Position numbers and translations under genes: made by a program. Under the pieces are notes generated by a model. That model was not told where the DNA came from, made no database searches, and saw only the letters and a list, made by a program, of their open reading frames with translations. This document shows positions 2,233 to 11,651 of a stretch of DNA of 64,000 bases, piece by piece; the stretch's first letter is position 1; every line of letters starts with the position of its first letter. Origin of the DNA: Kribbella sindirgiensis (GTDB lineage Bacteria; Actinomycetota; Actinomycetes; Propionibacteriales; Kribbellaceae); NCBI RefSeq assembly GCF_004331435.1, contig NZ_SJKA01000007.1, positions 186,001 through 250,000 on the forward strand, read 5' to 3'.

Positions 2233-4983
2233 TCAGCGTGGTACCACAAACGTGATGTACGTGGAGTTCCCCTTGCCGGCCACGCCGGAGTTCGGGCCGA
2301 GGGACAGCTGCCCGGCGGGTACGTCGCGCTTGAAGAGGATCAGGCGCTGGTCCGTCGTGCCTACGGTTTCGCCGGTGCGAGTGAACGAGGACAGCCACGA
2401 CGGCCACCACACGTTCTCGCCGCGGGGATCGAAGGCGACGTACACGGTTGCCGGCCGGGTCACATTGAGTGTCAGGTAGTCGGCTGGTGTGGTCGCCTTG
2501 GAGTCGTCGTTGGAGCCCGGTACCAGCGCCTGCCCGTTCAACGCCCCAGGCAGCTCAGTGACCGTGTAGCTGCGGTCCACATAGATCGGCGCACCTACCT
2601 GAGCCTTCACGAGATTGGACAGCTTCTCCGGCGCCACGACAGATACGAGAGAGCTGACCAGCGGCGGTTCGCTCCGCGTGACGCCCAGCACCCGGTTGCC
2701 AACTGTCTTGACGGCAGAAGCGGGCTGACCGGTCAGTGGGGCGAAGGTGAACGACGACAGCGGTGCGGCGACACGTTCAAGCGTGTACGACGCACCAGGA
2801 TCTGTCCGCAGGCTGACGACGTCGGCCGAGGTGCCACCGACGACAGCCTTCCCGTGGGAGTCGAGCACCCGGACCTGCTGGCCCGACCACGGGTTGCGGA
2901 GCCTCAGTGTGTCTCGGCTGCCGGCCTGGATGCCGACAACGTTCGGTACGCCGTCGTGGACCTCAGTGCTGATCCGGTGCCCGCCCTGGATCTGCACCGA
3001 CCCTGCGACGTCCCACTCGCGCGGCCACGCGGGTGCGACGTGCACAGTCCCGTCGTACGACTGGACGAGTGCTTCCTGCAGGCCGGTGGTCAGTACGCCG
3101 CCCCACTCGTTGTAGAAGCTGCGGTTCCGGACTGCTTCCTGGCCGGTGCGGTGGACGGTGAAGCCGTTCGGGTAGATCTGGAAGTCCGCGATGCCCTTCA
3201 GCAGCAGGCGTTTCACCTCGTCCGAGAGGCCGAGCCGCGCGGCCCAGGTGGAGTCCATGCCCCAGTCCTTGTCCTGTGGATAGACACGCTGCCGATAGGT
3301 TGCCTGCATCAACTCGGAGGTCTCGTCGAACACGCCCCACGGCCAGAGCGCCTCCATCTCCGGGTTCTGCGTGTTGTGCGACTCCTCGTCGGTACCGGAC
3401 CATGCCAGCACCTCCTCACCGCCACGCTGTACGGTCCGGAACGGCGGCAGCTTGCTGACCGCGTCCCGCAGCTGCTTGGCCAGCGATGCGTCGCCGTGTG
3501 ACACAGCCAGATCGGCAACCAGCGGGAAGATGACCCGCATCGCCGCCATATCGGGCACCGGGTCGCTGGTGTCCCACTGCACCTCCAGAGCGTTCACGTG
3601 CTCCAGGTGCAGGTACCCGTCGGCGCCAGTGGTCATGGCGGACAAGTAGAACCGCGCCACGTCCCGCATCAGCGGGTAGCTCCGGTTCAGCAGGGCCGTG
3701 TCTCCGGTGTACCGGTACTGCTGCCAGATGTTGTTCACCAGCTCCGGCCCACTGGTCAGGATCCGCCGTGTCCAGCTGGGCTCCTGGATGTTGTCGCAGC
3801 CGTCACCAGTGCCGTCGTACCGCATGAACTCCGGCAGGCAGAGTCCTTCGCCGCCGATCCAGTGTGTTCGCGTCCATTCGCGCATCAGCTCGGCACGGTC
3901 CAGGTAGAACTTGAAGTACGGCGAGTTGAGCTCGCCGATGCCCGCGCCGAGGTTCGCGGACACCAGCATCCGCAGGTTGAAGTGCCAGTACGAGTCCTGG
4001 GCCCAGTCCGCCTGATCTCCCGCGGACGAGAACATCCGCACCACCGCACCGTGCGTGCTCGGTACGTCGCCGCGCATCGACGCGGCCATCGTGTACAGCT
4101 GCAGCGTCCGGAGGTTCTCGACGTACTCACCGGACCCGTCCGCCGACGTGATCCGCATCGGCGTCGCCTTCTCCCAGAACGCGTGCCACCAGGCGAGGTG
4201 GTGACTGGGAGACTCGACGACGGCACGTCGCGCGGCTGTCCGCAGTTCTCCACCGCGGTACGACGGTACGCCGACGACGAGCCGGAAACTGCCGTCCGCA
4301 CGAGGACGGAACGTCAGGCGCACCGTCAGCGGGTCGACCACCGACGCGGTGACGCCTTGGGCCTGTGCTGTCAGCGCAGCCACCGCACCGGTGATGCTGC
4401 CGGAGGCCTCGTCGTGGAACGTCTCCGCCAGAGCAGCGATCCCACCAGCCGCACTGACCGCCGGCGTCCGACCTGCCCACAGCTTCAGGTCAGCGGTCTG
4501 CGTCAGCGAAGGATCCGCACCCGTCACCTCCAGAACGAACTGATCCGCGTCAGCCCGCACATACGAGCGCGCTGTGAGACCGCCACCGCTCTGCACCACC
4601 TGACCGTCGTACAGCGACAGCCGCCCGCTGTAGTCGTCAGCACGCATCAGCGAGTCCAGACCGGGTACGACGAGACGCCCGGCGGACTTGAGGTCCGGGA
4701 ACGTGTCCACGCGGTTGAGCTGTGCGCTGTAACCCTTCTCGGCCCAGACCGAGGCGCCGAGCACACCGTTCCCCAGCGGCATCGCCTGGTACGAGCGCCA
4801 CGCAGGACCCTCCTGGACGAGGTCAGACCGCGACACCAGCCCTGCAGTGTCGCCCTGCAGCGCACCGCCGCGCCAGGCGGTCGTTGCTTGCTCAGAAGGC
4901 GTACTACTGGCGGCTGGAACGGAGGCGGCACCAACGGTGAGCAGTGCGGCCAGCAACGGCATCGTCAAGCGAAGAGAAGTCAC
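2233..4983 (-). CDS. Secreted GH95-like glycoside hydrolase (fucosidase-related)
   Basis: A protein of 916 residues starting at a GTG whose GTGA overlaps the stop of the GH95 gene by 4 bp. A hydrophobic signal peptide (residues about 5-25, ending in PAASS) sends it out of the cell. The region MPLGNGVLGASVW...LNRVDTF resembles the N-terminal beta-sandwich of GH95 enzymes, and an (alpha/alpha)6-type core follows with WAQDSYWHFN, WIGGEGLCLPEF, QYRYTGD and ALWPWGVF. The last ~140 residues (from about APEKLSNL) look like a separate beta domain that could bind carbohydrate. It probably removes deoxy or acidic sugars from plant polysaccharide side chains. Catalytic residues are less clear than in the neighbour, so specificity is open. 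Confidence 0.72.
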   Translation of the reverse strand: MTSLRLTMPLLAALLTVGAASVPAASSTPSEQATTAWRGGALQGDTAGLVSRSDLVQEGPAWRSYQAMPLGNGVLGASVWAEKGYSAQLNRVDTFPDLKSAGRLVVPGLDSLMRADDYSGRLSLYDGQVVQSGGGLTARSYVRADADQFVLEVTGADPSLTQTADLKLWAGRTPAVSAAGGIAALAETFHDEASGSITGAVAALTAQAQGVTASVVDPLTVRLTFRPRADGSFRLVVGVPSYRGGELRTAARRAVVESPSHHLAWWHAFWEKATPMRITSADGSGEYVENLRTLQLYTMAASMRGDVPSTHGAVVRMFSSAGDQADWAQDSYWHFNLRMLVSANLGAGIGELNSPYFKFYLDRAELMREWTRTHWIGGEGLCLPEFMRYDGTGDGCDNIQEPSWTRRILTSGPELVNNIWQQYRYTGDTALLNRSYPLMRDVARFYLSAMTTGADGYLHLEHVNALEVQWDTSDPVPDMAAMRVIFPLVADLAVSHGDASLAKQLRDAVSKLPPFRTVQRGGEEVLAWSGTDEESHNTQNPEMEALWPWGVFDETSELMQATYRQRVYPQDKDWGMDSTWAARLGLSDEVKRLLLKGIADFQIYPNGFTVHRTGQEAVRNRSFYNEWGGVLTTGLQEALVQSYDGTVHVAPAWPREWDVAGSVQIQGGHRISTEVHDGVPNVVGIQAGSRDTLRLRNPWSGQQVRVLDSHGKAVVGGTSADVVSLRTDPGASYTLERVAAPLSSFTFAPLTGQPASAVKTVGNRVLGVTRSEPPLVSSLVSVVAPEKLSNLVKAQVGAPIYVDRSYTVTELPGALNGQALVPGSNDDSKATTPADYLTLNVTRPATVYVAFDPRGENVWWPSWLSSFTRTGETVGTTDQRLILFKRDVPAGQLSLGPNSGVAGKGNSTYITFVVPR

Positions 4984-7415
4984 GGGCGCACCTCGATGAA
5001 GTAGTCGACACCACGGCGAGTACGGAACTCGACGACGCCGTCCTCCGGGCGGGCGAACGCCACCGGGCCGATGGACGACTTCACGTCCACCAAAGCGCCG
5101 GTCCGCAACCGCAGCCGGTTTCCGAGCAGCGAGCGGATCTTTGCCTGGGTCAACTTCCCGTCGGACCAGGAGAACTCGAGGTCGAAGCCGCCGCGGGCAC
5201 GCATGCCCTGCACGCTCCCGGTCGGGAACGCGGTCGGCAGACAGGGGAGCAACGCGACCTCGCCGGAGTGGCTCTGCATGATCATCTCGGTGAGCCCGGA
5301 GACGCCGCCGAAGTTCCCGTCGATCTGGAACGGCGGGTGCAGGTCGAACATGTTCGGCGCGGTACGGCCAGGAGCCAGCAGTTGGGTCAGGTGCTTGTAC
5401 GTGTTGTCCGGCTCGAGCAGCCGGGCGCGGAGGTTGAGTTTCCAGGCCAGTGACCATCCCGCGGTCACGGCCGGGCCCCGCAGCTCCAGCGACTTACGGG
5501 CCGCGTCGGCGAGTTCCGGCGTACTGCGTGGGGTCACCTGGTCGCTCGGGAACACGGCCCACAGGTGTGAGACATGTCGACTCGTCTCCAGGGCGGCCTC
5601 CTCCCAGTCGATCAGCCACTCCTGGAGCTGGCCGAGGTACCCGATCTGGAGCGGTGCCAGCTTCGACCGCGCGTCCGCGGCGGCTGCAGCCATTCCGCTA
5701 TCGACACCGAGCAGCGCGGCGGCCTGGCCGAAGACCTTGAACAGGTCGTGCAGGATCTCGGTGTCCATCGTCGGGCCGGCACAGATGCTTACACCCTCGT
5801 TGTCGTAGTCGTGGTGCTTGACCTCGGGGGAGTGCGACGGGCTGGTCACCAGCCACCCCGTCTTCGCGTCGGTCTGCAGCTGGTCGAGGAAGAACTCCAC
5901 CGAGCCACGCAGGACCGGGTAGTACTTCCGCAGCATCTCCAGGTCGCCCGTGTACTCGTAACGCTCCCAGAACAGCAGCGACAGCCACGCACCGCCGGTC
6001 GGCCAGACCCCGTAGTACGCGAAGTCGACCGGTGCGGTCCCTCGCCACCCGTCCGTGTTGTGGTGCGCTACCCAGCCAGGTGCGTCGTACATGGTGGCCG
6101 CGGTACGTGCTCCGGACTCGGACAGCTCGCCGATCATCTGGAACATCGGGTCCCAGCACTCCGCGAGGTTGGCCGGACCGGCCGGCCAGTAGTTCATCTC
6201 GGCGTTGATGTTGAGCGTGAACTTCGACTGCCACTCGGGCAGCATCTTGTAGCTCCAGATGCCCTGCAGGTTCGCGGGCTGGCCGGGCGTACGGGAGCAC
6301 GAGATCAGCAGGTACCGGCCGAACTGGTAGTACAGCGCGGCCAGCTGCGGGTCACCGCCGTTGCGGAACGCCGTGATGCGCTGGTCGGTCGGCAGCGCGA
6401 TCGAGTCCGACGTACCGAGGTCCAGATCGAGGCGGCCGAAGAGTCGCTGGTAGTCCTCCACGTGCTGGTGCCGCAGCGCGCCGTACGCCGGGCGTCCGAT
6501 CGCGGCGAGTGGTGCTACGGCGCGAGCGACCTGGTCCGCGCTGACGTCGAGGTAGTTGCGGTAGCTGGTGCCGACCGAGAACAGCAGCGTGACCTGGTCG
6601 GCGTCCGCGACCGAGAGCTTGCCGTCAGCAACCGTAGTGGAACCGCCTTCGGTAAAAGCCCGCAGCAGCGCGCAGAACTTGACCGAACCGGTCAGCCCTT
6701 CGGCGTCACCGCTGACGCCGTTGAGCGCCAGCGTCTGCTTGTCGTACGCCGCAGGGGTCGCGGCCTGCTCCGTGCTGTACGTCGCGTCGAACGTGAGCGC
6801 ACCGCGCTGGCTGGCCGTCAGCCGCATCACCAGCACCTGCGCGGGGTGGCTGACGAACACCTCCCGCGTGTACCGCACGCCAGCGTGCTCGTAGCTGACC
6901 GACGTGATCGCCGTCGTCAGGTCGAGCTCCCGCCGGTACGCCGTGACCGCGGTCGCGTCGATGCCCGGAAACGCCAGCGAGAGGTAGCCGACCGGCTGGT
7001 ACTGCATCTGTTCGGTCGGACGGCCCATGAAGTGCTCGTCGGCGAGGTTCTGCGCGTCGAGGTACTTCTCCTCGGCGATCAGCCGGCGGATCTCCGGCAG
7101 GACGTCCTTGCCGATCGGGTCGTCGTACTGGTGCGGACCGCCGGCCCAGATCGAGTCCTCGTTCAGCTGCAGCTGCTCGGTCGCGGTGCCGCCGTACACC
7201 ATGGCGCCGAGGCGTCCGTTGCCGATGGCAAGTGCCTGGAGCCACTCGGTGGCGGGTTGGGTGTACCAGAGCTTCAGAGGGTTGGTGTCGCTTCCCGGTA
7301 CGGGTACGGGTGCGGCTCCGGCGGTCAGGGGAGTGGTGAGGGAGCCGGCGACGACAGCTGTGCCGGCAGCGGCGCCGGCGGTCTTCAGGACCTGCCGGCG
7401 GGTGTATTCGGACAT
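4980..7415 (-). CDS. GH95 family alpha-L-fucosidase/alpha-L-galactosidase, Tat-exported
   Basis: An 811-residue protein that starts at the ATG at 7415 behind GGGAG. The N-terminus has a twin-arginine signal (YTRRQVLK followed by an Ala/Gly-rich core to about residue 35), so the folded enzyme is exported. GH95 landmarks are all present: LAIGNGRLGAMVYGG and LNEDSIWAGGP early, then NLQGIW, the NIN of LNINAEMNYWP, TSPSHSPE, GPTMDTEI, and HPPFQIDGNFGG near the end. In characterised GH95 enzymes the Asn pair, a Glu and an Asp in these motifs form the inverting active site. The family releases terminal alpha-1,2-L-fucose or L-galactose. The start overlaps the amidohydrolase gene by 31 bp, which implies coupled expression. 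Confidence 0.92.
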   Translation of the reverse strand: MSEYTRRQVLKTAGAAAGTAVVAGSLTTPLTAGAAPVPVPGSDTNPLKLWYTQPATEWLQALAIGNGRLGAMVYGGTATEQLQLNEDSIWAGGPHQYDDPIGKDVLPEIRRLIAEEKYLDAQNLADEHFMGRPTEQMQYQPVGYLSLAFPGIDATAVTAYRRELDLTTAITSVSYEHAGVRYTREVFVSHPAQVLVMRLTASQRGALTFDATYSTEQAATPAAYDKQTLALNGVSGDAEGLTGSVKFCALLRAFTEGGSTTVADGKLSVADADQVTLLFSVGTSYRNYLDVSADQVARAVAPLAAIGRPAYGALRHQHVEDYQRLFGRLDLDLGTSDSIALPTDQRITAFRNGGDPQLAALYYQFGRYLLISCSRTPGQPANLQGIWSYKMLPEWQSKFTLNINAEMNYWPAGPANLAECWDPMFQMIGELSESGARTAATMYDAPGWVAHHNTDGWRGTAPVDFAYYGVWPTGGAWLSLLFWERYEYTGDLEMLRKYYPVLRGSVEFFLDQLQTDAKTGWLVTSPSHSPEVKHHDYDNEGVSICAGPTMDTEILHDLFKVFGQAAALLGVDSGMAAAAADARSKLAPLQIGYLGQLQEWLIDWEEAALETSRHVSHLWAVFPSDQVTPRSTPELADAARKSLELRGPAVTAGWSLAWKLNLRARLLEPDNTYKHLTQLLAPGRTAPNMFDLHPPFQIDGNFGGVSGLTEMIMQSHSGEVALLPCLPTAFPTGSVQGMRARGGFDLEFSWSDGKLTQAKIRSLLGNRLRLRTGALVDVKSSIGPVAFARPEDGVVEFRTRRGVDYFIEVRP

Positions 7416-8179
7416 TGGGCGGTCTCCCTGGGGCGGTAGATGCGCTGGGCGGTGCCACGGAACACGTCGTTGTGCGTGGCGGGTGGCAGCAGTGCGGTGG
7501 TACGGCGGATCACCTCGGCGCGGGTGGCGGCCAGCGTGCACACCGGCCAGTCCGAGCCGAACAGGAGCCGTTCACTGCCGAAGAGTTCGAGGGCGACGTC
7601 GACCAGTGCGCGGAGGTCGTCGGTCGCGAGGTGGGCGGTGCCGGAGAGCTTGACGGTCACGTTCGGATGCTCGGCGAGGGCTCGCATTCCGGACCGCCAC
7701 TCGGGGGTCACGGTGGTCGGGTTGCCGAGGTGGTCGAGGACCAGACGGGCGTCCGGTACGGCGGACGCGAGGCGGGCGGCGCCGATCAGGGCGGAGGGGC
7801 GGAGCAGGAGGTCGATCGCGAGGCCGGCGTCGGCGGCGGCCCGCACGCCGCGCACGTGCGCGGGAGTTGTCAGCAGGTCGGGGTCGGTCTGGTCGGCGGG
7901 TGGGCTGCGCACGCCCACCAGTCGCGGGTCGTCCGGCAGCCGGTCGGGGAAGTCGAGCAGATCGAACCAGCCCACCACACCAACCACAGCCGGGTTCTGC
8001 CGAGCCAACGCCAGCAGATCGTCCACCTCACCCGGATCAGCATCCGCCTGCACCAGCACTAGCTCAGGAACGTCGGGCAGGTCGGAGAGGGTGAAGTCAC
8101 GCCGGAGGGGATGCCCCGCCGGAAGCCAGGGGAGGCGGCGGCGCGTCAGGTCCCAGACGTGCACGTGGGCATCAATCAT
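7385..8179 (-). CDS. Amidohydrolase, L-fuconolactonase-like (COG3618)
   Basis: A 264-residue TIM-barrel amidohydrolase of the COG3618 lactonase type. It begins MIDAHVHVWD (His5, His7) and ends with the metal-binding FGSDWPVC, with VKLSG and LDHLGN between. Known members hydrolyse sugar lactones such as L-fucono-1,5-lactone or 2-pyrone-4,6-dicarboxylate. It lies in an operon with a GH95 fucosidase, so hydrolysis of L-fuconolactone to L-fuconate in a non-phosphorylative fucose route is the best guess. No signal peptide is visible, so it is cytoplasmic. It overlaps the regulator gene by 8 bp and the GH95 gene by 31 bp. Substrate assignment is contextual. Confidence 0.85.
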   Translation of the reverse strand: MIDAHVHVWDLTRRRLPWLPAGHPLRRDFTLSDLPDVPELVLVQADADPGEVDDLLALARQNPAVVGVVGWFDLLDFPDRLPDDPRLVGVRSPPADQTDPDLLTTPAHVRGVRAAADAGLAIDLLLRPSALIGAARLASAVPDARLVLDHLGNPTTVTPEWRSGMRALAEHPNVTVKLSGTAHLATDDLRALVDVALELFGSERLLFGSDWPVCTLAATRAEVIRRTTALLPPATHNDVFRGTAQRIYRPRETAQCPNTPAGRS

Positions 8180-9314
8180 GGCGGCCGGCGGGTCTGGTGA
8201 TGGAGCTTTCGCCTCGGGCGTGGGCGGCGAAGAGGCGGGCTGAGTCTTCGGGGTCGGTGCCGGCCAGGACCTCGATCAGGTCCAGGTGGCGGCGGGCCAT
8301 CAGGCCCCAATCGCCGGCGTACATCGCGTTGGAAACCACCTGCAGGCTCCACAGCGCCGGCTCCAGCGTTCGCCACACGCGCAGGAGCATCGAGTTGCCG
8401 CTGGTTGCCAGCACCTGCCGGTGGAACCGCAGGTCGGCCTCACGGAACGCGCCGATGTCGTGGTGGCCGGCTGCCTCGATCATCCGCTGCACCTCGATCC
8501 GGAGCAGGTCGAGCTCCTCCGGCGGCGCGTGACCGGTCGCCCGGCGGGCCGCGGCGGACTCGAGCAGTACGCGGACCTCCCGCGCCTCCCGGGCCTCGAC
8601 TTGCGAGATCTCGGTGACGAAGTTCCCCAGCCGCGGCCGGTACGTGACCAGCCCCTCGTGCGCCAACCGCCGGACCGCTTCCCGGGCCGGGGTCTGGCTG
8701 GTGCCGAGCACCCGGGCGATCTCGGACTCGACCACCCGCATCCCGGGCGCGAGCTCGCCGGACAGTATCCAGCCGCGGATCGCCTCGTACACCCGGTCGG
8801 ACAGCAACTCTGTGTCACCGGCGAACAGCGGCGCCGGCGGGTTGGCGCCCACGACACCGAGTGAATTGGAGGCGCCGGCACCGGAGCGGTAGTGCTGGAC
8901 CTCCTCCCGGCGCCGCCGCGACACGGTCGACTGCGAGACGCCGTACGTCGCGGCCAGCTCGCGGGTTGACGGGCGATGTCCGGAATCGGCCATCGATGTG
9001 GCGGCCCCACTGATCGATGCGGCACCCAACTGCACCCGGTCGACCATCCGCGGCCGTCCGCTGCGCATCCCGTCGTCGAGGCCGGCCATGCCCATCCGGA
9101 GGAATCTCCGGCGCCACTTGCCGACCGTGCCCGGGGTGACCTCGAGCAGGTCCGCGACCGCCTTGTTCGAGCGTCCCTCGGCGCTGGCCAGCACGATCCG
9201 GGCCCGCAGTCGCATCGCGGCGCTGGTCCGCGAGGCGGCCGCGAGCTGGCTGAGCGCGGTCCGCTCGGCCACCGACAGGGTCAGCGGCGACTTCGGTCTT
9301 CCGGCATCGGGCAT
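8172..9314 (-). CDS. Fusion regulator: IS630-type helix-turn-helix region plus GntR/FCD
   Basis: A 380-residue protein with an unusual layout. Residues ~12-95 match the N-terminal helix-turn-helix of IS630-type transposases (LTLSVAERTAL, RARIVLASAEGRSNKAVA, VGKWRRRF, GLDDGMRSGRPR). Residues ~113-136 form a second such motif (RPSTRELAATYGVSQSTVSR). Residues ~168-233 are a GntR winged helix (DRVYEAIRGWILSGEL, SQTPAREAVRRLAHEGLVTYRP). Residues ~240-372 are an FCD ligand domain with candidate metal ligands D293, H298, H343 and H365. No transposase catalytic domain is present. It is first in a leftward operon with the lactonase and GH95 genes, so it probably senses a sugar acid and controls this locus. 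The ATG at 9314 is preferred to a TTG 36 nt upstream. Confidence 0.86.
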   Translation of the reverse strand: MPDAGRPKSPLTLSVAERTALSQLAAASRTSAAMRLRARIVLASAEGRSNKAVADLLEVTPGTVGKWRRRFLRMGMAGLDDGMRSGRPRMVDRVQLGAASISGAATSMADSGHRPSTRELAATYGVSQSTVSRRRREEVQHYRSGAGASNSLGVVGANPPAPLFAGDTELLSDRVYEAIRGWILSGELAPGMRVVESEIARVLGTSQTPAREAVRRLAHEGLVTYRPRLGNFVTEISQVEAREAREVRVLLESAAARRATGHAPPEELDLLRIEVQRMIEAAGHHDIGAFREADLRFHRQVLATSGNSMLLRVWRTLEPALWSLQVVSNAMYAGDWGLMARRHLDLIEVLAGTDPEDSARLFAAHARGESSITRPAGRHD

Positions 9315-9392
9315 GGCTGCATGGTGACCCGGTTCACAGCGTTCTGCCAACCCCTTATGGCGCGGACTTCTGACTCAGAATGTCCACTTTGC

Positions 9393-9402
9393 CGTTTAAA
9401 CG
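9393..9402. promoter_or_regulatory. Perfect palindrome in the divergent regulator/transporter gap
   Basis: CGTTTAAACG is an exact 10-bp palindrome and one of the few AT-containing stretches in this GC-rich 178-bp gap. It directly abuts TTGACA at 9403-9408, a plausible -35 element for the rightward transporter operon, although only a weak -10 follows. The position between the fusion regulator and the solute-binding protein gene fits an operator that controls both directions. No second copy was seen, and which protein binds here is inferred. Confidence 0.45.
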
Positions 9403-9492
9403 TTGACACTTGAGCGTCGCGCTCTGCATCGTCACTCGATAACGACGCCCGGCCGCCCCCGACGCCGGGACGATCCGAGGAGGACCCGGAAA

Positions 9493-10785
9493 ATGGCTCG
9501 TTCGATACGGCGCTCCCCAGGACGCAACCCACGACGCACACCAGGCCTGCTGACAGCTGTCGTGATCCTGGCGGCCGCGGCGGGCTGCGGCGGCGGCTTC
9601 AGCGACGACAAGGGTGCTGCTGGTGACAGCACCGGCGAAGTGCGGATGCTCGTCAACATCACCCCCAACCTCACGAAGAGCTACTGGGAGGGCCTGGTCA
9701 AGCCCTTCGAGGACGCCAACCCGGGTGTCGACGTGAAGATCGAGGCGCCGACCGGTTCGGGTGTGAAGGACACGCTGCCGCAGCTGCTGGCGGCCGGCAA
9801 CGCGCCGGATGTCGTCGAGACGCTGATGGCCGACAAGGTGCTGGCGCCGCAGATGCTCGACCTGACCGACCAGGCGTGGACCAAGGACACCCCGCTGGTG
9901 GAGCAGGCCTCGCTCGACGGCAAGGTGTACACGGTCGGTGTCGGCCAGCAGGCGCAGTCGCTGGTGTTCTACAACAAGGACGCCTTCGCCAAGGCCGGTA
10001 TCAGCGCCCCGCCGAAGGACCTGGACGAGCTGACCGCCGCCATGGGCAAGCTGAAGGCGGCCGGCTACCTGCCGCTGCAGACCGCCGGCGACTACGTGAC
10101 CGGTCTGCAGTTGCTGCAGCTCAGCAACCCGTCGATCGCCACCAAGTACCCGGACTGGTACCAGCAGATCAGCTCCAAGCAGGCCAAGGTCGGCGAGACC
10201 ATGCAGCCGCTGCTGGAGCGCTACGAGTCCTGGATCAAGAACGGGTACGTCGACAAGAACGCGCTCGGTCTGAAGGACGTCGGCGCGCAGACCAACTTCC
10301 TGTCCGGTAAGGCCGGGATGTACATCATGGGCAGCTGGTTCGTCCGGACCGCCGACGACGCGAAGCCGACGTTCGACCTCGGCGTCTTCGCCGCGCCGAC
10401 CGAGAAGGGGCAGCCGTCGCCCGGTCCGCAGGGTGTCACGATGGCCGCGCCGTACATGGTGCTGAAGTCGACCAAGCAGCGGGACCTCTCGGTGAAGCTG
10501 GTGCAGTGGCTGGTCACCGACAAGACCGCGGTGCAGAGCCAGCTCGCGCAGGACGGCAACTTCCGCAAGGGCTACACCGACAAGCTGTCGCCGCTCGGCA
10601 AGCAGGTGCAGGACATCCTCGACCAGGCGCCGAAGCACGTCGCCCAGGGTGAGGGGTACGGCGCCAACACGCTGCCGCAGGGCTTCAACGGCGAATGGAA
10701 CAAGGCGGTCCAGAGCCTCTACACGGGGAAGAGTGCGAAGGACGTCGCCACTCGCATCGACAGCTGGATGGGCTCGAAATCGTGA
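9493..10785 (+). CDS. ABC transporter sugar-binding lipoprotein (CUT1 family)
   Basis: A 430-residue extracellular solute-binding protein. The ATG at 9493 follows a strong GAGGAGGA ribosome site. The N-terminus has basic residues, a hydrophobic core and a lipobox ending AAGC with Cys32 as the lipid-attached residue. Family-1 binding-protein landmarks include the motif around LPQLLAAGNAPDVV, LVFYNKDAFAKAGI, FLSGKAGMYIMGSWF and a Trp/Tyr-rich sugar cleft. It captures an oligosaccharide outside the membrane and hands it to the two permeases encoded directly downstream (4-bp overlap). The ATPase is not encoded here; CUT1 systems in actinomycetes commonly share MsiK. The ligand is unproven, but the context suggests fucose-containing oligosaccharides. 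Confidence 0.92.
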   Translation: MARSIRRSPGRNPRRTPGLLTAVVILAAAAGCGGGFSDDKGAAGDSTGEVRMLVNITPNLTKSYWEGLVKPFEDANPGVDVKIEAPTGSGVKDTLPQLLAAGNAPDVVETLMADKVLAPQMLDLTDQAWTKDTPLVEQASLDGKVYTVGVGQQAQSLVFYNKDAFAKAGISAPPKDLDELTAAMGKLKAAGYLPLQTAGDYVTGLQLLQLSNPSIATKYPDWYQQISSKQAKVGETMQPLLERYESWIKNGYVDKNALGLKDVGAQTNFLSGKAGMYIMGSWFVRTADDAKPTFDLGVFAAPTEKGQPSPGPQGVTMAAPYMVLKSTKQRDLSVKLVQWLVTDKTAVQSQLAQDGNFRKGYTDKLSPLGKQVQDILDQAPKHVAQGEGYGANTLPQGFNGEWNKAVQSLYTGKSAKDVATRIDSWMGSKS

Positions 10786-11651
10786 GAGCCCGCCTGACGA
10801 CCCTCAGTATGGTCGGTCCGGCGCTGGTGCTGTTCGTCGTCATGCTGGTCGTCCCGGTCTGTCTGTCGCTCTACCTCAGCCTGACCGACTGGGACGGCTA
10901 CAGCGCGAACCCGGCGTTCGTCGGCCTGAAGAACTACGTCAGCCTGACGCACAGCGCCGAGGCGATCCGGGCGGGCTGGGTGACGCTGCTGATCGCGGCC
11001 GTGGGCACTGTCCTGCTCAGCGTGTTCGGACTCGGGTTCGCGCTGCTGGTGAACGGTGCGTCCCGGCTGAACGCGTTCTTCCGCATCGTGCTGTTCTACC
11101 CGCACGTCTTGAGCGCACTGGTCGTCGGCTTCCTGTGGAGCGCGGTGCTCGGTACGTCGGGTGTCGTCAACGGCTGGCTCACGTCGAAGGGCGCTGAGGT
11201 ACTGCCGTTCCTCTCCGACCCGACATGGGCTCTCGCGAGTCTGATCGCCGTACTGGTGTGGGCCGGGTTCGGTGTGAACGTCGTGCTCTACCTGGCCGGG
11301 CTGCAGACGGTGTCGAAGGACCTGCTGGAGGCGGCGCGCATCGACGGCGCATCGAAGCGTCAGACGTTCTTCAACGTGACGCTGCCCGCGTTGGCGCCGG
11401 TGGTGACGGTGAACCTGGTGCTGTCGCTGGTGACGTTGCTGAAGACGTACGACCTCGTGGTGTCGCTGACAGGAGGCGGCCCAGCCGGATCCACTCAGAC
11501 AGCGGCGTACCTGATCCTGTGGGACTCGTTCCACAACAACGCGCTCGGGTTCGGCTCGGCGCAGAGCGTCGTACTGATGGTCATCACCGCAGGTCTCGCT
11601 CTGACCGTCGCTCGGCTGCGGGCGCGCGCTGACCGGGGGGTGCAGGCATGA
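10782..11651 (+). CDS. ABC transporter permease, CUT1 sugar type (MalF-like)
   Basis: A 289-residue inner-membrane permease beginning at a GTG that overlaps the stop of the binding-protein gene (GTGA). About six hydrophobic segments are visible, starting with MVGPALVLFVVMLVVPVCL. The cytoplasmic EAA loop that docks the ATPase is at residues ~183-202 (EAARIDGASKRQTFFNVTLP). It pairs with the next gene to form the sugar channel. The overlaps at both ends (4 bp each) indicate tight translational coupling. The family is certain; the transported sugar is inferred from the locus. Confidence 0.92.
   Translation: MRARLTTLSMVGPALVLFVVMLVVPVCLSLYLSLTDWDGYSANPAFVGLKNYVSLTHSAEAIRAGWVTLLIAAVGTVLLSVFGLGFALLVNGASRLNAFFRIVLFYPHVLSALVVGFLWSAVLGTSGVVNGWLTSKGAEVLPFLSDPTWALASLIAVLVWAGFGVNVVLYLAGLQTVSKDLLEAARIDGASKRQTFFNVTLPALAPVVTVNLVLSLVTLLKTYDLVVSLTGGGPAGSTQTAAYLILWDSFHNNALGFGSAQSVVLMVITAGLALTVARLRARADRGVQA

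Follow-up and report, generated by a model that had tools for sequence, protein, structure and literature searches.

A GntR/FCD regulator with an IS630-type DNA-binding domain and a transposon-end-like upstream site at a sugar locus of Kribbella

How does a regulator at a sugar locus come to carry the DNA-binding domain of a transposase, and what might that domain still read? The question is raised by a gene of Kribbella sindirgiensis that lies in a stretch of 64,000 nucleotides (contig NZ_SJKA01000007.1, positions 186,001 to 250,000; hereafter the window, numbered from its first letter). The gene is on the minus strand, with its ATG at 9314 and its stop at 8172, and encodes a protein of 380 residues. 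Its N-terminal part is a domain with two helix-turn-helix (HTH) motifs of the kind found in IS630-family transposases, and the rest is a GntR/FCD regulator. A short element in the gap upstream resembles the inner core of an IS630 terminal inverted repeat (TIR). Probably, as judged from sequence comparison, the transposase domain was captured along with this inner TIR core, and the fused protein now serves as a composite-operator regulator of a sugar locus containing a GH95 enzyme and an ATP-binding cassette (ABC) transporter. The features on which the argument turns are as follows.

8172..9314, minus strand: fused regulator gene, IS630-type bipartite HTH domain plus GntR plus FCD, 380 residues
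9045..9218, minus strand: first transposase-type HTH (HTH1), residues 33-90, with a GRPR linker at its end
8901..8978, minus strand: second transposase-type HTH (HTH2), residues 113-138
8616..8804, minus strand: GntR winged helix, residues 171-233
8217..8585, minus strand: FCD domain, residues 244-366
9361..9378, minus strand: IS630 TIR-core-like site, CTGAGTCAGAAGTCCGCG
9428..9440, no strand: ATCG-N5-CGAT palindrome (8 of 8 palindrome letters), likely GntR operator at the -10 region
9403..9408, plus strand: TTGACA, likely -35 of the ABC-transporter operon

The fused protein and the origin of its N-terminal domain

The C-terminal part has the order of domains that defines a GntR/FCD regulator, both above their Pfam cut-offs: a GntR winged helix (PF00392, residues 171-233; 1.2e-18, 66.9 bits against a cut-off of 27) followed by an FCD domain (PF07729, residues 244-366; 9.6e-21, 74.9 bits against 24.3). 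FCD domains bind ligands and dimerize. At the N-terminus, Pfam reports HTH_28 (residues 37-89, 5e-15), HTH_23 (33-79) and HTH_29 (37-89); HTH_32 (63-133) reaches 27.6 bits, under its cut-off of 33.7. The NCBIfam IS630 transposase model NF033545 aligns through its positions 2-104 of 299 with residues 37-134 (50.3 bits). No match is found beyond model position 104 or to the catalytic part of the model, and with 50.3 bits against a curated cut-off of 100 and no DDE domain the protein is not an IS630 transposase. A preliminary description, made from the letters of the window, had read two IS630-like HTHs, a GntR winged helix and an FCD sensor in this gene and had noted the lack of a catalytic domain. 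It is borne out on each point, and the two HTHs turn out to be the halves of one bipartite transposase domain.

Residues 1-145 can be aligned with IS630 transposases from Kribbella, and in several of these a DDE domain follows. In a plasmid collection, 422 records match these residues, all at less than 60% identity; among the best 60 of these matches, every feature-annotated row except one is a transposase, and that single row, named GntR, is another fusion. Profile, alignment and tree place IS630 transposase N-termini as the nearest relatives of residues 1-145, and the idea that this part is a standard regulator domain, which would have undone the preliminary description, does not hold. The stretches TVGKWRRRF and SQSTVSRRRRE are among the best conserved of the fused N-terminal part. 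The THW motif that precedes HTH2 in the transposases is missing from the fused regulator. In the source genome (G000), an IS630 DDE fragment lies at the very edge of a contig (G000:C51:5-283), which suggests that IS630 copies break the assembly. Since copies may thus have been lost in assembly gaps, absence of IS630 from this genome is not claimed.

A survey of Kribbella, of the kind the preliminary description had called for, found the fusion in 15 of 38 genomes. Altogether 31 fused loci were collected, the others being in Amycolatopsis, Saccharothrix, 12 of 297 genomes of another family of the same class (f20, searched at E 1e-45) and two Streptomyces plasmids (NBC_00184, where the gene is annotated as a plain GntR regulator, and NBC_00841, where it is unannotated). 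Carriers include Kribbella pratensis, K. soli, K. steppae, Amycolatopsis vastitatis and Saccharothrix sp. NRRL B-16314. Thirteen Kribbella genomes, that of the window and 12 others at 86-96% identity, encode the full-length fused protein. The fusion is rare, since in a class-wide draw of 394 genomes ten match at E 1e-30 and only the source genome and one other (G318) are fused.

A recent insertion or a frameshift artefact, the other outcome that would have voided the preliminary description, is rejected: the junction is open in the 13 Kribbella sequences, in Amycolatopsis, in Saccharothrix and in others. In one locus (L098, genome G003), about 40 residues are inserted in frame between the two HTHs, at regulator residues about 103-150; therefore the inter-HTH spacing tolerates large change. 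The only frameshifted Kribbella regulator seen is that of genome G002 (L097), where the frame is lost after about codon 51; a sequencing error is possible. A match on the Rhodococcus rhodochrous plasmid pNit (H63) was rejected as a fusion. There, an IS630-like transposase split over reading frames lies directly downstream of an unfused GntR gene (L105), so that both kinds of gene are neighbours without being fused.

Maximum-likelihood trees were made for each half of the protein, with 24 unfused and 21 IS630 rows picked from the matches; other matches, among them L091-L094 and loci obtained later, were left out. In the GntR-FCD tree, a branch supported at 98/99 separates 30 fused from the 24 unfused rows, among which long end branches were warned of. 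In the tree of the DNA-binding domain, a branch at 99/96 separates the 30 fused from the 21 IS630 rows. Both trees are unrooted, and the fused rows count as a clade only with the root placed among the unfused or the IS630 rows. Two main groups recur in both trees, Kribbella with Amycolatopsis and Saccharothrix, and family f20 with Streptomyces, as would be expected if the halves travelled together. A single old capture of the transposase domain would be the simplest reading of the two trees.

The captured domain is under purifying selection in both of its HTHs, looser than that on GntR. The ratio of nonsynonymous to synonymous changes (dN/dS, by counting over the 13 Kribbella sequences) is 0.108 for HTH1, 0.149 for HTH2, 0.241 for the stretch between them, 0.392 for residues 1-32, 0.453 for the linker to GntR, 0.023 for GntR (residues 170-236) and 0.080 for FCD. 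Two marks of a transposase capture are found together: a transposase DNA-binding domain free of catalysis is joined to a host domain, as seen in both trees, and is maintained by selection.

AlphaFold2 models are of moderate confidence (pLDDT 71.6 for the whole protein, 72.9 for the N-terminus) and place helices where both HTHs are expected, those of HTH1 at 32-45, 50-57 and 61-79. Foldseek matches the whole model best to GntR-family structures (PmiR, VanR, McbR, NanR) and returned no match at E 0.001 or below for the N-terminal model. A profile built from the N-terminal parts of fused and IS630 rows matches the mariner domain of SETMAR (1.8e-8) and, after three other matches (0.002-0.006), Pax5 (0.007). 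In a fold comparison of residues ~26-144, Pax-6 (Z 5.7; root-mean-square deviation 9.5, 98 residues aligned), SETMAR 7s03 (Z 5.4; 7.7, 90) and Mos1 (Z 5.2; 8.2, 92) are tied with the one-HTH sigma region 4. The fold evidence for a predicted paired-like domain is supportive only.

A TIR core upstream of the fused genes

Alignment of the upstream regions brings out one short element common to the fused loci. On the regulator strand it reads GAGTC-N2-AA-N-T, 4-58 bp before the start codon. This 11-bp core is found at 9 of 11 letters or better in 31/31 fused loci, on one strand throughout; the best core match upstream of unfused relatives (17 stretches, 14 distinct loci) is 8/11, equal to random sequence. 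In nine diverged fused loci, two of them from Kribbella, the core has 87% pairwise identity and its flanks 30-31%, and GAGTC, AA and the last T are invariant. The 8.9-Mb genome has a single copy of GGACTTNTGACTC and likewise a single copy of its backward control, and the core is exact only at 9361-9378.

The core is also found in IS630 elements. It precedes the transposase open reading frame (ORF), in the same orientation, at 8/11 or better in 27 of 45 elements (near-copies included; 4 of 49 loci were dropped, no ORF motif being found), as compared with 189 of 2250 shuffled sequences; elements scoring at least 8 have it 3-39 bp before the ORF. Comparison of copies within genomes places the core inside the TIRs, for example CTAGTGTCGTGAGTCATTAGTTC. 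The TIRs themselves were located by copy comparison and their CTAG ends; a search by best inverted match alone gave noise. GAGTC is present in both arms of three of seven multi-copy IS630 types (L150, L152 and L160), and the others have related or different letters.

A motif model was then built from the 40 TIR arms of a non-redundant set of 20 IS630 elements, with no fused sequence included (of 34 longer DDE ORFs, four had no CTAG-ended TIR pair, and 20 of the other 30 were kept). Left arms carry GAGTC in 11 of the 20 and GAGTT in two. With the inner columns 8-26, the top match in the 64 kb is 9361-9378 on the regulator strand (score 19.13; next 10.26). This range was chosen post hoc from three; the same inner core had been defined earlier from the fused loci. 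With columns 4-28 the site ranks second in the window. When the three Kribbella elements are removed from the model, the site scores 18.96 and the best match elsewhere 10.27. Upstream of the 31 fused genes the median score is 18.6 and the site is the top match in 29; upstream of 23 unfused genes the median is 2.1 and the maximum 13.4 (an outlier, L071). For 620 shuffled fused upstreams the 99th percentile is 13.3 and the maximum 20.8, and the upstreams of 20 GntR paralogues of the source genome reach 9.8 at most.

Similarity to transposon ends extends beyond the core. The window resembles two single TIR ends of the same genome over 25 bp, on to 9354, with 22 and 21 identical positions; the 22/25 match is to the end at G000:C11:854180. 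The extended similarity is clear for L186 (score 35, shuffle maximum 22) and L192 (30, maximum 23) and unclear for L188 (22; 6 of 300 shuffles as high), L052 (22; 1/300) and L150 (14; 104/300). Nothing in the window amounts to an IS630 insertion sequence around the gene: one inner core lies upstream in place of a CTAG-ended TIR pair, and none of the six best matches of the 30-column TIR model in the window is near the regulator gene.

Miniature inverted-repeat transposable element (MITE)-like sequences were also seen in the source genome. A pair of ~170 bp, identical as printed and with inverted ends (L188, G000:C22:136201-136352; L190, C44:43762-43913), carries at each end an IS630-type TIR, CTAGTGTCCTGAGTCGGAAGTTCG, with a core that agrees with the one at 9361-9378 in 14/16 positions. 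Others occur as a variant pair at C54:106251/106387 and as single ends at C11:854180, C50:392204 and C52:146. In eight f20 loci (L096, L117-L121, L125, L126), a further TIR-like match near the ABC promoter (9.9; 12.0 in L125 and L126) sits in a block with TATTAAATAATCG or its like; it is near the shuffle level and is possibly a second contact.

The sugar locus and a candidate composite operator

Downstream of the regulator, and on the same strand, lie genes for an amidohydrolase and a GH95 glycoside hydrolase; an ABC-transporter operon diverges from the regulator.

9493..10785, plus strand: ABC sugar-binding protein (SBP_bac_1 in Pfam), divergent from the regulator
10695..11651, plus strand: ABC permease (listed ORF; Pfam BPD_transp_1)
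7385..8179, minus strand: amidohydrolase (Amidohydro_2 in Pfam), which we take to be lactonase-like
4980..7439 (listed ORF starts at 7541), minus strand: GH95 glycoside hydrolase (Pfam Glyco_hydro_95_cat, 2.8e-158)

An orthologue of the sugar-binding protein (82-100% identity) is present in exactly the same 15 of 38 Kribbella genomes as the fusion. Two others (G001 and G020) have a relative at 46-47% identity beside an unfused GntR-FCD gene. Among the 15 fused loci with long flanks, the sugar-binding protein and first permease are found in 15, GH95 in 13 and the amidohydrolase in 11; neither GH95 nor the amidohydrolase is in the Amycolatopsis and Saccharothrix stretches tested. Three unfused loci have the transporter and lack GH95. 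GH95 is a family of alpha-L-fucosidases, acting on L-fucosides; for the sugar of the locus this gives no more than a guess. The view that a domesticated mobile-element protein reads DNA at a sugar locus, put forward in the preliminary description, is supported by an old, conserved fusion that diverges from a sugar ABC operon with GH95.

Within the gap of 9315-9492, where a long composite operator had been proposed, two candidate elements are found, the TIR core at 9361-9378 and the palindrome at 9428-9440. The resemblance of part of the operator to a transposon end had not been foreseen. The palindrome has at least seven of its eight letters in 24/29 fused and 11/23 unfused upstreams, against 207 of 2600 shuffles; the simplest reading would be that it is the old GntR operator and the TIR core the added one. 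Where the palindrome has 7-8 letters, the spacing between the two elements is 62-99 bp between groups, and helical phasing is not convincing. The TTGACA at 9403-9408, identified by eye, is kept from Kribbella to Amycolatopsis and Saccharothrix. A consensus promoter scan, covering one promoter type, found no complete promoter.

We infer the following order of events. An IS630-family element would once have been just upstream of the GntR/FCD regulator of a sugar ABC-transporter locus. When the catalytic part of its transposase was lost, the bipartite HTH domain would have become fused in frame with the regulator, and the left TIR of the element would have persisted as its inner core upstream of the start codon. 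The fused protein would then act as a dimer that responds to a ligand through FCD and contacts DNA by two kinds of module: the transposase domain would hold the TIR core (9361-9378), and the palindrome (9428-9440), over the -10 region of the ABC operon, would be held by the GntR winged helices. Jointly, the modules would repress, rather than activate, the divergent transporter operon and probably the regulator's own gene. A sugar ligand would release GntR, leading to derepression, and the TIR contact would anchor the protein at the locus. For ISY100, a member of the IS630 family, binding of the TIRs by the two-HTH N-terminal domain has been described in electrophoretic mobility shift and footprint assays, with weaker binding when only the first HTH and the hook are present (PMC2170065).

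Several observations weigh against this reading. Only the inner core is retained, with no CTAG end at 9340-9400, and the full 30 columns of the TIR model rank the site only 21st in the window because the outer CTAG end was not kept. Similarity beyond the core is clear for only two of the five transposon ends tested, and seven of 20 IS630 left arms have neither GAGTC nor GAGTT. The site is not the top match upstream of two fused genes, L124 and L126, in the former case because an uncertain start codon cut the upstream short. In the Amycolatopsis, Saccharothrix and Streptomyces loci and in L067, the palindrome is weak (5-6 of 8 letters). Near matches of the core occur elsewhere in the genome (11 at two mismatches; 86 places at three or fewer, control 50), so that specificity for the locus would need the GntR contact too. 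Confidence in the whole structural model is moderate, with stretches 82-113 and 140-169 below 50. The frameshifted G002 locus keeps the site (9/11, the lowest in Kribbella; model score 18.7), which a promoter role would also explain, and it is possible that the core persists solely as part of the regulator's promoter.

The last point leads to an alternative that we regard as unlikely, in which the core is kept for the regulator's promoter, having been inherited from that of the IS630 transposase, and the HTH domain is kept for some other reason without contacting it. The position of the site is where a promoter is expected, both in the fused loci and in the IS630 elements, and its retention in G002 fits as well. 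However, invariant GAGTC, AA and T letters within random flanks are unlike a -10/-35 pair, the promoter scan, for its one promoter type, finds nothing at the site, both HTHs are under purifying selection, and several IS630 elements have the core at both ends, of which the right should have no promoter role. It is less probable still that the N-terminal domain no longer binds a specific sequence and serves for oligomerization or as a non-specific DNA tether. The greater variability of HTH2 and of the inter-HTH stretch relative to HTH1, and the loss of the THW motif, would agree with a tether, but TVGKWRRRF and SQSTVSRRRRE are among the most conserved N-terminal stretches, and all fused genes examined have a conserved TIR-type site next to them.

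Least credible, to the point of being hardly tenable, is an ordinary GntR/FCD regulator with an irrelevant in-frame IS630 remnant upstream. The GntR-FCD half does share 40-47% identity with stand-alone regulators, some of them next to related ABC operons; yet 30 sequences, drawn from several genera and families, retain the fusion, both HTHs are constrained in Kribbella, and the frameshift and recent-insertion forms of this explanation have already been refuted. A further proposal extends the capture reading rather than opposing it: the domain and its own TIR may have been captured as a ready-made regulator-operator pair, and the regulator may also read MITE ends elsewhere, mobile copies spreading its operators. 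It is raised because the genome carries MITE-like elements with cores 14/16 identical to the operator, and we hold it to be rather doubtful. The capture of the transposase domain with its TIR core, followed by use at a composite operator, remains the reading we prefer. It makes the idea that captured domains bring their own binding sites testable at one promoter, and a natural control is at hand in the unfused homologues that lie beside homologous transporter operons without a TIR core.

Comparison with known systems

For FadR/FCD-kind GntR regulators, a palindrome at the regulated promoter and a position divergent from a transporter operon are typical. The fused regulator shares their GntR winged helix and FCD domain and differs by its extra bipartite IS630 HTH domain of ~140 residues and by the second, TIR-like upstream element of the fused loci. 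With the IS630/Tc1/mariner transposases (NF033545; ISY100, Tc3, Mos1) it shares the N-terminal two-HTH domain, the GRPR linker and an equally oriented TIR core ahead of the ORF. Unlike them, it has neither a DDE domain nor a CTAG-ended TIR pair, and the fusion is found at the same sugar locus across species with no sign of mobility seen.

The regulator family and the principle of domestication are thus both known. In the open-access literature, as far as titles and the beginnings of abstracts tell, no fusion of a GntR regulator with an IS630 HTH domain is described, and a term search of the main text of a review on recruitment of prokaryotic mobile elements finds neither IS630 nor GntR (PMC8987985). 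Within these sources, the combination and its conserved, apparently TIR-derived site were not found described.

TldR originates from TnpB. It is a mobile-element DNA-targeting part turned regulator (PMC13418256), and mobile-element proteins co-opted as bacterial regulators include Ner/SfsB and antitoxins (PMC8987985). The fused regulator resembles all of these in its origin from a mobile-element DNA-targeting part. As far as these sources go, they are repressors or RNA-guided proteins recruited as such, whereas here a domain of a DDE transposase appears to have been grafted onto an existing regulator.

Transposase capture is, to our knowledge, known mainly from eukaryotes. Tc1/mariner HTHs have been captured by F-box genes there (PMC12062965), and the SETMAR domain has been solved on Hsmar1 TIR DNA (structure 7s03). 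Like SETMAR with Hsmar1, the fused regulator joins a DNA-binding domain of the mariner superfamily to a host effector. It differs in being bacterial, in having GntR/FCD as the effector, and in keeping a TIR core nearby as a conserved cis element. The fusion looks like an old bacterial transposase capture in which the cis element survives beside the gene in every fused locus examined.

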